A stretch of DNA of 64,000 bases from Calditrichota bacterium (GTDB taxonomy: Bacteria; CLD3). This document shows, in pieces, positions 26,975-51,770 of this stretch. The stretch spans positions 1 to 64,000 of the forward strand of contig QQUF01000040.1 in assembly GCA_008501735.1 (NCBI GenBank), written 5' to 3'. The notes beneath the pieces are model-generated. The model saw nothing but the letters and a program-made list of their open reading frames with translations, did not search any database and was not told the DNA's origin. Each line of letters starts with the position of its first letter. Position 1 is the stretch's first letter. Position numbers and translations under genes: made by a program.

Positions 26975-28308
26975 TACAAATATTCACTCATATATTTAAA
27001 CTTTTCAGTGAAACTTCCATTTTGTAAAAACATTGCTTTCTTAACTTCATCTTTCATATCAAGTTCATTAAATGACTTTGAAAAATCTGCATCAAAAATT
27101 TGTTCTAAGTAAGGTGTGAGTTGTTGGCTAAACAATTCAGAAGCATCTTTTGGGAGTTCACAAGGCAAGTTTGTAACTGCCATTACTGACAAACCTTCTC
27201 CTTCAAACCCATAGTCAATTGCTTGGTTTTTCGGATTGAAAATGAAAACAGGGTCGTCAATCCAAGTCTCTCTTGAACATTGAATCGAACCTTCTGGGTC
27301 GCAAGTGATGTCTCCAATTGTCTTGAGATTCGTCTTTTTACTTGTAGTGAAAAAGTTCTTCAAATCTTCGTAAGTCAAAAGTCTAGGGAATTTAGGAGTC
27401 CAATTTATTCCGTTTACCCAAATGCTGATAAAATCAATGTAATCGGGAACTCTTGTCTCAAATCTTTCAGGGTGTCTTTTGTAAACAGAGTAAAAATTAT
27501 CGTGTGGGATTTCCGAACCGTCTTTAGTTTTGTAAAGGTCAGAAATTCCAAGAACAATTTTGTAAACCTTATTTCTCGAACCATTCTTATAAACAGATTT
27601 AATTTCTTTTAAATGGATTCTTTCAGGTTTTAAAAAATCAAAAACTTCTTGAGCTCCTTTTGAAACTCCACCATTTCCTGCAAAAGCACAAATGACAGGT
27701 GGAAGTTCCTTAGGAGTTCCATTTGCAGTAATAAATTTTCCAACTTCTTTAATTTGATTTTTAGAAAATTCAAGGTTCGAGTGTGTAATTGTCTGAGAAA
27801 TTTTTGAGAAAGGATTTTCAAGACCTAAAGTTTCGAGCCTTTTCCCATAAGTCCAAAGAGTGTCGATAATTCCTGCGTAACCAGCAAAAGTTGTGAAAGA
27901 AGTAACTGTTCTTCTACCGTGAGAATTTGTAATTAATTCATAATCAATTACTGTTGATTTTTTTTTGACAAGGTCTTTGAGCATTTCGCGGTTTTTAACT
28001 TGGCCTTTGTGTGTATGCGAAAAGAAAAGATAAGTTTTATTCGGTAGTATTTTTTCGATTGAAATTTCTTTGAGTCCAAAAATTACTTCAGCTTTTGAAA
28101 TGTCTTCTGAAATCTTTGCTCCAGCTTTTTCGTATTCAGCGTCTTCAAAGATTCTTTTCACTTCGCCGTTAATTGGAGAAAGTCTTGGTTGAACAAGAAA
28201 TTCGTAGCCTTTAGAGACCAATTCCGAAACGGTCTTTGGAGTGATTCCAACTCTTAGTTCGCCGACTTTTGTTTCGTCTTCGCGTCTGATTGCAATTGTT
28301 TTAGGCAT
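26974..28308 (-). CDS. Lysine-ketoglutarate reductase-like dehydrogenase
   Basis: The 444-residue protein has an AlaDH/PNT-type N-terminal domain (IAIRREDETKVGELRVGITP) and the FFSHTHKGQ motif typical of lysine-2-oxoglutarate reductase. A Rossmann segment follows (ICAFAGNGGVSKGAQEVFDF). The C-terminal half has the family patterns IGDITCDPEGSIQCSRET and GLSVMAVTNLPCELP. It probably makes saccharopine from lysine and 2-oxoglutarate with NADPH. The saccharopine dehydrogenase half found in bifunctional enzymes is absent and not adjacent. It overlaps the DUF423 gene by eight bases and the next small gene by one base. Alanine dehydrogenase is the main alternative. Confidence 0.75.
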   Translation of the reverse strand: MPKTIAIRREDETKVGELRVGITPKTVSELVSKGYEFLVQPRLSPINGEVKRIFEDAEYEKAGAKISEDISKAEVIFGLKEISIEKILPNKTYLFFSHTHKGQVKNREMLKDLVKKKSTVIDYELITNSHGRRTVTSFTTFAGYAGIIDTLWTYGKRLETLGLENPFSKISQTITHSNLEFSKNQIKEVGKFITANGTPKELPPVICAFAGNGGVSKGAQEVFDFLKPERIHLKEIKSVYKNGSRNKVYKIVLGISDLYKTKDGSEIPHDNFYSVYKRHPERFETRVPDYIDFISIWVNGINWTPKFPRLLTYEDLKNFFTTSKKTNLKTIGDITCDPEGSIQCSRETWIDDPVFIFNPKNQAIDYGFEGEGLSVMAVTNLPCELPKDASELFSQQLTPYLEQIFDADFSKSFNELDMKDEVKKAMFLQNGSFTEKFKYMSEYL

Positions 28309-28657
28309 TTCTCATTCCTTCCCAAATCACAAAAAACCAGCCTGCAAGAAAGAAAAGTCCACCAATTGGCGTAACCATTCCTAATTTTTTCATTCCACTG
28401 ATTGTGAGAATGTAAAGCGAACCCGAAAACACTAAAATCCCAATTAAGAAACAAATTTGAGCATAAGGCATTTTATTGTAAATCGTGATTGTTAGCAGGA
28501 CAACAGTGTGAACTAAGTGATAAAGAACTCCTGTTTGATAAACTTGCATCATTTCTTCCGAAAGCATTTTTTTTAGTCCGTGAGCTCCAAAAGCTCCAAG
28601 TGCAACTCCAAGGAATCCCAAGATTCCACTTATTAAAAACCAATTTTGTTGTGTCAT
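28301..28657 (-). CDS. DUF423 inner-membrane protein
   Basis: The 118-residue protein has four predicted membrane helices and the DUF423 pattern ALGAFGAHGLKKMLSEEMM followed by YQTGVLYHLVHTVVLL. It ends GGLFFLAGWFFVIWEG. The family (YgdD in E. coli) is a conserved membrane protein of unknown function. Its end overlaps the start of the next gene by eight bases. A perfect heptamer repeat tract begins six bases upstream of its ATG and could alter its expression if its copy number changes. Confidence 0.88.
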   Translation of the reverse strand: MTQQNWFLISGILGFLGVALGAFGAHGLKKMLSEEMMQVYQTGVLYHLVHTVVLLTITIYNKMPYAQICFLIGILVFSGSLYILTISGMKKLGMVTPIGGLFFLAGWFFVIWEGMRNA

Positions 28658-28662
28658 ATTTT

Positions 28663-28719
28663 GAATTAAGAATTAAGAATTAAGAATTAAGAATTAAGAA
28701 TTAAGAATTAAGAATTAAG
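28663..28719. repeat. Perfect heptanucleotide tandem repeat, 8 copies of GAATTAA
   Basis: Eight uninterrupted copies of GAATTAA plus one base occupy 28663-28719. The tract lies immediately upstream of the DUF423 ATG (28657). Because it is perfect, unlike the degenerate versions elsewhere in the window, it is likely recent and prone to slippage. On the coding strand the unit reads TTAATTC. Confidence 0.95.
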
Positions 28720-28755
28720 TAACTGAGTTCAAATTTAACGAAAAATTCTATCAAA

Positions 28756-40009: not shown

Positions 40010-41503
40010 ATGAAAGTTCAAATGAAAATACACATTCAAGCAAATTACTCACTTCTTTACTTTCTCACTTGGGAAGAAGAACGTGCTTTGGAAAAACTCG
40101 ACGAAATCTCTAAAGAACTTCGCCGAAGATTTTTCGTTTGGTCGGAAACCAAAGGTTTAAGGAATTACGTTACTGACAAACCCGAAGAAGAAGACCTTAA
40201 CGACCCGGAAGCACTTTTGGATTTTATTGAAAATTTTAGTGGAAAAGGGATTTTTGCACTTTTGGATTTTCACGAATTTTTGAACGACAGAACTGTAAAA
40301 CGCCGTCTCAAAGAAGTTGGGCAGAAACTTAGGAAATCTCACAAAAACATTGTCCTTGTTTCTGCAACAATGAATTTGCCAATTGAACTTTCAAAAGAAG
40401 TTGTAGTCCTTGACCTTGATTTACCTTCTGTAAAAGAAATCGGCGAATCTTTGGACAAAATTACTGAAACTTTGAAAACCAAAGACGTTAGCGTCGAACT
40501 TCCGCCGAACATTCGTGAAAAGATTGTGAAAGCAGGACAAGGCTTAACTCTCATCGAATTCAAAAATGCAATCGCAAAATCTTTGGTAACAAATCAAGGG
40601 CTTTCGCACCAAACAATTCCCGGAATTTTGGACGAGAAAAAGCAACTCATTCGCAAAACAGGAATTCTCGAATACTTTGAACCAAACGATACTTTGAAAA
40701 ATGTTGGTGGTTTGGAAAACCTGAAAGATTGGCTCACGACTCGTGCAAGTGCATTTTCAAACAGAGCAACTGAATTTGGAATTCCGAACCCGAAAGGTCT
40801 TTTGCTCGTCGGAGTTCAAGGTTGCGGAAAATCATTAACTGCAAAAGCCGTTTCTTCACACTGGAAACTTCCACTTTTACGCCTTGACGTTGGAAAGATT
40901 TTTCACGGTTACATCGGTTCTTCGGAAGCAAACGTTAGACAAGTGATTCAACTCGCCGAAGCAATTTCGCCTTGTATTTTGTGGATTGACGAAATCGAAA
41001 AAGGAATGTCGGGAACTTCAAGTTCAGGCTCAACTGACGGAGGAACAACTTCAAGAGTGGTTTCGAGTTTGACAACTTGGCTTCAAGAAAAAACAAAACC
41101 TGTTTTTGTAATTGCCACAGCAAACCGAATCGAAATTCTTCCACCCGAACTTTTGCGTAAAGGAAGGTTTGACGAGATTTTCTTCGTTGACTTGCCAGAG
41201 CAAGAAGCACGAGAAGAAATTTTTAGAATTCACGTTGAGAAAAAGAACCGAAATCCCGAAAAATTCGACATCACAAAACTCGCCGAAATCAGTGAAGGTT
41301 TTAGTGGAGCAGAAATCGAACAAGCAGTAATTTCTGGACTTTTCGAGGCATTCAAAGAAGACCGAATTCTCAAAACCGAAGACATCGCAAAAAGCATCGA
41401 AGAAACTGTCCCGCTCTCACAAATGATGAAAGAAGAAATCCAATACTTACGAAATTGGGCAGTTCTAAGGGCAAGAAAAGCTTCGGACAGAATTACGAAT
41501 TAG
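40010..41503 (+). CDS. Ycf46-like AAA ATPase
   Basis: The 497-residue protein has an N-terminal helical domain (about 1-210) and an AAA module. The Walker A is [14 protein letters not shown], the Walker [14 protein letters not shown], and the second region of homology [22 protein letters not shown]-terminal AAA lid follows ([16 protein letters not shown]). It matches the Ycf46 group, a single-AAA family of cyanobacteria and other bacteria with poorly known function, sometimes tied to carbon uptake control. There is no zinc protease motif, so it is not FtsH. The last codons and stop are made of heptamer repeat. Confidence 0.85.
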
Positions 41504-41524
41504 AAATTACGAATTACGAATCAA
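41490..41524. repeat. Degenerate heptanucleotide repeat overlapping a gene end
   Basis: Five units, GAATTAC, GAATTAG, AAATTAC, GAATTAC and GAATCAA, follow at 7-bp spacing. They provide the last residues (RITN) and the TAG stop of the Ycf46-like gene. Confidence 0.7.
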
Positions 41525-50618: not shown

Positions 50619-51770
50619 TCAGGACTTTTTCTTAGCTTCAAATTTCTGCTCCTTCCACTCGAATTTTAAGAATTGTCCAAGTAGTCCAAGAATTGTTACG
50701 TAAGGAATGTGAAGCAATTCCATCAGCGGAAAAATTGGAATTAATTTCCAACTTTTCCAATTTGAAATTCCCCAAAAAATTACTAAAAACTCTATGAGTG
50801 TTTTTGTGAAAAAAATTCCTAAAATTGCTTCTAATTTTACAAAACCTGAAAACCATAAAATCGGTGAGATAAAAAGTAAAAAATTAAAAAGGTAAACACT
50901 TCCAAGCAAAATTTTGGTTTTTAAAGTGTAACTTTTACCTTTTGAAGCGTGTCTGATTCTTTGGTTAAAAAATGCTTTTGCAGAATTTGGTGGGCTTGTT
51001 AAAACAGAACTTTCAGGACAAAAAACAATCTTCCAATTCGTCAAATCTCTTACCAAATGCAAAAATAAATCGTCGTCTCCTGAAATGAATTTTGCGATTT
51101 TGCTAAAACCTCCGACTTCTTCAAATACCTCTTTTCTGTAAGCCAAATTTCTGCCCGAACAAGTCATCGGAAACCCGAGGGCGATTGTTCCTGCGTTCAC
51201 ACAAGCAAGGCTCAATGTGTCAAGTTCTGCCAAAAGAGAAAAAAGTCCTTTTCCTTTTGAAGGAGAATAACCCGTTACAAGTCCGACTTTCGGTGTGAAG
51301 TAATTTAAAGTTTTTTCAATCCAATCTTTTTCAGGAATGCAGTCGGCATCAGTGAAAAGCAAAATTTCTCCTTTTGACTCAGAAATTCCAAGACTCAAGG
51401 CATTTTTTTTCGGAGCCATTTCTAACTTTGAGTTTTTGTCAACAGTTAGGAATTTTAGTTTTGCAAAAATCTTTGAGAATTTTTCAAGAACCGCTAAAGT
51501 CCCATCTTCTGACCTGTCATCAACGATGATTAATTCAAAATTTTGGTAAGATTGGTTTTTTAAAGAATCAATCAAAAAGGGGAGGTTCTGTTCTTCATTT
51601 CTTGCTGCAACAATTACACTAATAAACTCATTTGTTTTTCTTGGCTTAGCTCTTCGGACTTTCAAAATTCCTACCAAAAGCCCAAAAACTAACAAACAGT
51701 AAATAATAAGTAATGAACAATAAACAATTAACAATGGAGAATTGCTATAAATTTGAAAAATTGCTTCCAA
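50619..51770 (-). CDS. Family 2 glycosyltransferase, membrane-bound
   Basis: The 383-residue enzyme has an N-terminal membrane helix (residues about 11-35), then a GT-A domain. Motifs are ISVIVAARNEEQNLPFLI, LIIVDDRSEDGT, LFTDADCIPEKDW and SGDDDLFLHL, ending with QRIRHASKG. Two to three membrane helices close it. It builds a polysaccharide or glycolipid, with the sugar unknown. Codons 11-27, the first helix, consist of seven degenerate heptamer repeats, giving an internal seven-residue repeat (LLIVYCS and LLIIYCL). Confidence 0.85.
   Translation of the reverse strand: MEAIFQIYSNSPLLIVYCSLLIIYCLLVFGLLVGILKVRRAKPRKTNEFISVIVAARNEEQNLPFLIDSLKNQSYQNFELIIVDDRSEDGTLAVLEKFSKIFAKLKFLTVDKNSKLEMAPKKNALSLGISESKGEILLFTDADCIPEKDWIEKTLNYFTPKVGLVTGYSPSKGKGLFSLLAELDTLSLACVNAGTIALGFPMTCSGRNLAYRKEVFEEVGGFSKIAKFISGDDDLFLHLVRDLTNWKIVFCPESSVLTSPPNSAKAFFNQRIRHASKGKSYTLKTKILLGSVYLFNFLLFISPILWFSGFVKLEAILGIFFTKTLIEFLVIFWGISNWKSWKLIPIFPLMELLHIPYVTILGLLGQFLKFEWKEQKFEAKKKS
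51691..51739. repeat. Seven degenerate heptamer repeats inside the glycosyltransferase gene
   Basis: On the coding strand units CCATTGT, TAATTGT, TTATTGT, TCATTAC, TTATTAT, TTACTGT and TTGTTAG follow at 7-bp spacing. Their core is nnATTnn as at the other loci. Three units equal seven codons, so the repeat produces a seven-residue period in a hydrophobic helix. Confidence 0.75.

Follow-up and report, generated by a model that had tools for sequence, protein, structure and literature searches.

The window, the whole 64,000-nucleotide stretch of DNA analyzed here, carries a gene for a GT2 glycosyltransferase, and the codons for the N-terminal membrane helix of this protein run through a degenerate array of heptamers (Table 1). 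The ORF matches the Pfam profile PF00535 (E = 2.3e-26; 93.2 bits, gathering score 23.3) as well as PF13641 (E = 1.1e-22); its best NCBIfam match, PgaC_IcaA, stays far below the cut-off for that family (90.3 against 422.3 bits). From the upstream stop to the helix there is no ATG and only TTG starts are available, and the same holds for the GT2 gene of the nearest relative.

Table 1. Positions of the GT2 gene, its array and related features (numbers without a prefix are window positions)
Feature	Position	Strand	Basis
GT2 glycosyltransferase gene	50619..51770	-	ORF call (383 aa); starts at TTG; membrane helix at the N-terminus
Array of degenerate heptamers (plus-strand family AACARTN) that is translated antisense	51687..51744		lag-7 identity 31/42, TRF period 7
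Codons 13-26, two 7-residue copies LLIVYCS / LLIIYCL (LLIVYCSLLIIYCL)	51693..51734	-	translation
Tyr24 codon TAC, conserved helix tyrosine (Tyr-x9-Gly), inside array	51699..51701	-	Tyr-x9-Gly in 65/78 homologues
(GAATTAA)8 array, a period-7 repeat of the same class, outside ORFs	28643..28736	+	TRF 100% matches over 28663-28719, lag-7 identity 42/42
GAATTAC array overlapping 3´ end of ORF 40010-41503	41489..41524	+	TRF, lag-7 scan
Hairpin repeat sites	L097:8712-8766, L244:15102-15120, L102:9909-9964
Array-bearing sorting domains	L110, L203 (two), L204, L213, L228, L252, L254, L105, L210

On the plus strand, positions 51691-51739 can be divided into the units AACAAAC, AGTAAAT, AATAAGT, AATGAAC, AATAAAC, AATTAAC and AATGGAG. 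TRF reports 6.0 copies of period 7 over 51694-51735 with 77% matches, and the units are thus degenerate rather than perfect. Identity at lag 7 is 31/42, compared with 15-21/42 at lags 5, 6, 8 and 9; it also exceeds the identity at lag 14 (29/42) and lag 21 (27/42), so that the basic period is 7 and not 21. Not one of 20,000 codon shuffles, in each of two kinds, reached 31/42. Among 20,000 synonymous recodings that encode the identical peptide, 135 did, some being able to because the peptide itself is 7-periodic. An order-5 Markov sequence of 16.6 Mb, ten times as long as our sample, contained no array with this score. The preliminary description had read codons 11-27 as heptamer units that spell out a seven-residue repeat, and given the lag-7 identity and the codon shuffles this reading holds, with the units being degenerate.

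To place the array in its genome, we sampled 1.664 Mb of its 4.14 Mb, namely the window and 80 stretches of 20 kb, 12 of them picked for hits and 68 chosen blind. ORFs were called mechanically at 80 codons or more, and an identity of 22/28 defined an array, with 30/42 as the stricter and 20/28 as the laxer cut-off. The 22/28 cut-off yields 29 arrays for lag 7, while every other lag between 4 and 13 has 0-3; the blind stretches alone give 21 at lag 7 against 0-3 elsewhere. At 30/42, the count is 10 at lag 7 against at most 1 at each lag between 4 and 22 other than the multiples of 7 (in the blind stretches, only 4 against 0-1), and the Markov sequence yielded no lag-7 array. Multiples aside, seven is the sole strongly enriched tandem period among lags 4-22 in these 1.66 Mb. 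Of 30 distinct strong arrays, 18 are outside called ORFs or overlap one by no more than 51% of the array length. The 12 within ORFs comprise 10 in sorting domains of the T9SS and two that fall wholly in N-terminal segments, those of GT2 and of an OstA-like protein. When 1,132 ORFs were scanned over their first 210 nt, the 20/28 cut-off gave four matches at lag 7 (GT2 with 22, the OstA-like gene with 28, an RlpA-like gene with 21 and an unrelated ORF with 20) and 2, 4, 1, 5 and 0 at lags 5, 6, 8, 9 and 10, and therefore no lag-7 excess at this cut-off.

The GT2 units resemble a family that is dispersed in the same genome, with AACARTN arrays outside ORFs on contigs C17, C46, C48 and C59. Triplet matches to AACARTN (contigs C17, C26, C44, C46, C48 and C59) all fall on the contig plus strand, 16/16 with none on the minus strand, and a looser pattern gives 26 plus and 2 minus; contig orientation should be arbitrary. 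A tie between array polarity and replication was considered and set aside, as GC skew takes both signs and arrays overall occur on both strands. A consensus for all units, NARTKRN, was likewise abandoned: it gave 112 runs on the real strands and 114 in a reversed-sequence control, and we place no weight on that scan. Triplets of another heptamer, AATTACN, number 64 in this genome and are absent from the nine other genomes searched; the reverse of the pattern, a heptamer in its own right, occurs 21 times here. Some arrays sit close to gene starts. The eight perfect GAATTAA units in the window lie upstream of a minus-strand ORF (28301-28657), a few bases from its start, and at L111:7668-7746 the last of six TTAATTC units ends one base ahead of the ATG that opens an ORF of ~717 residues, which we take to resemble Tex.

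The age of the helix could be judged from homologues. A scan of a genome collection kept 80 loci, of which 78 were scored after removal of L122 (odd match length) and L153 (truncated locus), a helix being a 19-residue segment with mean hydropathy of at least 1.6 ahead of the catalytic motif. The helix is present in 77/78 homologues, and the exception, L163, reaches 1.58. It ends 16-32 residues before the catalytic motif in the homologues and 19 residues before it in the window GT2. The motif Tyr-x9-Gly, kept here as Tyr24-Gly34, far outnumbers any other spacing from 4 to 17, which recurs in at most 13. None of the homologues has the repeat, their lag-7 identity being 11-22/42. The GT2 of the nearest relative, about 61-63% identical, has a helix of equal length that aligns without gaps and also lacks the repeat; we found no relative above this identity and no sign of a net insertion in the helix. 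The preliminary description had proposed that the anchor arose from, or was extended by, repeat DNA, and had expected homologues without the repeat to have no helix or one of different length. Given that the helix is old and that the relative has an equal, repeat-free one, the GT2 helix was not born from the repeat, and the first half of the proposal falls. The second half, taken as extension by or rewriting with repeat DNA, is the better reading, in light of the dispersed family and of the parallels at the OstA-like gene, the RlpA-like gene and, less clearly, a third gene.

In two other proteins, and perhaps in a third, the export signal seems to come from arrays of the heptamer family, the first two parallels being clear and the third weaker. 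The OstA-like protein (contig C26; PF13100 and PF03968) has the signal KRLKSVILQILFLFTVHCSLFTVHCSAQ, which consists of five perfect AACAGTG units (lag-7 identity 28/28) read antisense as LFTVHCSLFTVHCSAQ and preceded by KRLKSVIL, derived from a hairpin repeat. Its orthologue in the nearest relative (57% identical) has an ordinary repeat-free signal, MKFIFLLSFVFCKVLFAQ, with 17/28. A PF03330 protein on contig C7, whose name RlpA and lipobox reading are our assumption, carries the signal ILYFSLFAIHCSLFSC (segment FSLFAIHCSLFSC; 21/28), compared with GLFLIILTFFFSC (LTFFFSC; 15/28) in the nearest relative. The third case is a 1,167-residue protein on contig C48, probably exported to judge from its N-terminus, with the segment NRLKSAILLFVIVHCSLFVVNAQ; the nearest relative has an unrelated ordinary signal in front of a body that is 72% identical. 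This parallel is based on the hairpin repeat and a shared HCSLF heptad, and we call it weak because it fails the lag-7 cut-off and surfaced in the NARTKRN scan, in which the control reached the level of the signal. A tblastn search of plasmids with the export-signal peptide returned 52 records, the best being a Brasilonema plasmid protein (92% over 25 residues) and most of the others falling below 60% identity.

The hairpin repeat SGACTAAAGTCSGNAATCC, often arranged as an inverted pair of roughly 55 bp, has 52 copies in this genome (allowing up to one mismatch) and none in the 10 other genomes searched. Its core matches are outside ORFs in 21/27 cases in the sample, and it is read in frame close to the N-termini of three proteins, namely the OstA-like protein, the C48 protein and a histidine kinase (KRTKVRNPILVLFIFLLCNNLFAQ), with a possible fourth instance on contig C29 (L321). 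We saw none at the start of GT2, unlike in two of the parallel genes (OstA-like and C48). A general composite of array and hairpin is not claimed, since only 1/30 strong arrays has a hairpin repeat within 200 nt.

Read in the sense direction, heptamers occupy one and the same loop, about 56-65 residues before the stop, in the C-terminal sorting domains of at least 10 T9SS cases. Of 85 sorting-domain candidates that a motif scan gave in the sample, 20 have a lag-7 identity of at least 20/28, a level that none has at lags 5, 6, 8 or 9. The loops belong to two families that share this position, one of GAATTAC (INYELRITNYE) and one of CAATTAT mixed with CAGTGAA-like units (TIINYQLSVNSEG; TIINYQL..NSEG). 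All four array-bearing C-termini that were compared with the NCBIfam profile TIGR04183 exceed its cut-off of 23 bits (32.3, 34.0, 32.7 and 38.9); the remaining 6/10 were assigned by the NPFNP motif and by reading. From six relatives, 30 sorting-domain loci were fetched and 25 parsed; 24 of these score 6-16 at lag 7 and one (G009) scores 19. Paralogues within the genome may have the loop by common descent, and the 10 domains are therefore not counted as 10 independent events. In the literature searched, whose coverage leaves out most subscription papers, we found no report of a signal-peptide or sorting-domain-loop role for heptamer arrays.

Given that 21 nt make seven codons, a heptamer array gives one and the same heptad in all frames. 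Antisense CAATAAA reads FIVYCLL, CAATGAA reads FIVHCSL and CAGTGAA reads FTVHCSL, each stop-free and identical in three frames; these units are rotations of AACAATA, AACAATG and AACAGTG. Of 12 units tried, GAATTAC, CAATTAT and CAGTTAT are stop-free in sense, CAGTGAA, CAATGAA, CAATAAA and GAATTGT in antisense, and GAATTAA, CAATTAA, CAGTTAA, TAATGAT and TAATGAC on neither strand. AACARTN units ending in T carry a stop in one antisense frame, and the single AACAATT unit within the GT2 array is read in another. Mean antisense hydropathy is 2.9 for CAATAAA, 1.97 for CAATGAA, 1.23 for CAGTGAA and -0.63 for GAATTGT. Stop-free cyclic heptamers with a mean of at least 1.9 number 96 of 2,344 and include antisense CAATAAA and CAATGAA; at a threshold of 1.2 there are 232, among them antisense CAGTGAA. 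That translated arrays are built of stop-free units is partly a tautology; that the N-terminal ones are hydrophobic is the informative part.

Starting from the array, its likeness to the dispersed arrays, the conserved helix of the homologues and the parallels at other genes, we suggest that an ancestral anchor was rewritten by lineage-specific repeat DNA, tolerated at a hydrophobic N-terminus, and give this a probability of about 0.6. The GT2 family would have started with an N-terminal membrane helix, only the letters of the anchor being new. In this lineage, a tandem array of the AACARTN family, probably produced by slippage, would then have rewritten the 5´ half of the helix or extended it by one or a few units, and point mutation would later have decayed the array. 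More generally, arrays at 5´ gene edges could stand in for a portion of an export signal or of a membrane segment, with the frame staying open and hydrophobicity kept, and this would be tolerated because certain heptamers, read antisense, give hydrophobic heptads free of stops in whichever frame. The GT2 product would, on this reading, still insert in the membrane. We hold the rewriting with less confidence here than for the OstA-like protein because the GT2 units are degenerate, there is no close relative and no net change in length, and gene starts show no lag-7 excess at 20/28.

It is possible, if unlikely, that an ordinary AT-rich hydrophobic helix has codons that fell into period seven by chance. 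T-rich hydrophobic codons can mimic part of the signal, as seen in the synonymous recodings that reach the score, gene starts show no lag-7 excess at the laxer cut-off, and the conserved tyrosine lies inside the array in register with the homologues. Against this stand the codon shuffles, none of which reached the score, the concentration of the strictest arrays at lag 7, and the match of the GT2 units to a dispersed family of their own genome. A single 21-nt duplication of seven codons within the helix, independent of the heptamer family, would account for the two seven-residue copies in the peptide and for the identity at lag 21; we consider it improbable, since identity is higher at lag 7 than at lags 14 and 21 and it is the units, and not two blocks, that follow the genome consensus.

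Two functional readings seem very improbable to us. The array could act as a regulatory repeat on the 5´ side of the gene, a role that has been proposed for TAACTGA in Beggiatoaceae, with translation beginning 3´ of it, and the L111 array directly upstream of a start codon has such a placement. A later start in GT2, however, would leave about 12 hydrophobic residues and lose Tyr24, while nearly all homologues have the full helix; as most of the helix would be deleted, the array is presumably translated. Alternatively, gain or loss of heptamers could shift the frame and switch the enzyme on and off, seven not being a multiple of three and the OstA-like, RlpA-like and C48 genes keeping, in silico, no in-frame ATG, GTG or TTG upstream of the body at -2, -1, +1 or +2 units, but in the GT2 units a TTG keeps an in-frame start in silico for -1, +1 and +2 (not -2) units, and their degeneracy should damp slippage.

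Rewriting of the GT2 anchor may be one part of a broader process, which we propose tentatively, as an even bet. A lineage-specific outbreak of period-7 repeats, helped by the hairpin repeat, would repeatedly have become targeting parts of unrelated proteins, the antisense strand giving signal peptides and anchors and the sense strand the T9SS sorting-domain loop, with the surviving units being those that are stop-free in three frames and have the right hydropathy. What matters in a signal peptide or membrane anchor is composition more than sequence, and targeting segments are therefore natural entry points for noncoding repeat DNA. Since several apparent replacements occur in one genome beside repeat-free orthologues, the origin of targeting sequences in simple repeats can be tested directly. 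The rule that all frames give the same heptad also predicts which repeats can be domesticated.

Heptamer repeats with a related distribution have been described. Direct repeats of TAACTGA occur in Beggiatoaceae, Cyanobacteria and Bacteroidetes, mostly between genes and in some cases at the periphery of ORFs or the edges of proteins; the stop-free strand reads LSVISYQ, the other strand has stops, and one array is located close to the beginning of an ABC permease (MacGregor, 2015; PMC4679880). The arrays in our genome are similar in that period 7 is over-represented and most (18/30) are intergenic or at gene edges, and the L111 array just before an ATG resembles the placement in Beggiatoaceae. 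They differ in that several other heptamers are involved, tandem TAACTGA being absent (no doublet in 1.664 Mb), and in that those that are translated make up export signals, one membrane anchor and loops of sorting domains, a use that does not appear in the available text of that paper. The hairpin repeat recalls the Rickettsia palindromic elements, which are dispersed palindromic repeats of ~150 bp that code for a conserved peptide and are read in frame within genes unrelated to each other (PMC10969869, citing Ogata, 2000). Ours may be comparable, being a dispersed hairpin read in frame near several N-termini; unlike those elements, it is a roughly 55-bp inverted pair found mostly outside ORFs and not seen at GT2. 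As for the enzyme, the window GT2 resembles other polytopic GT2 glycosyltransferases (PF00535/PF13641) in joining a catalytic domain to an N-terminal anchor, and it differs from them in its unusual codons, which are confined to that anchor.
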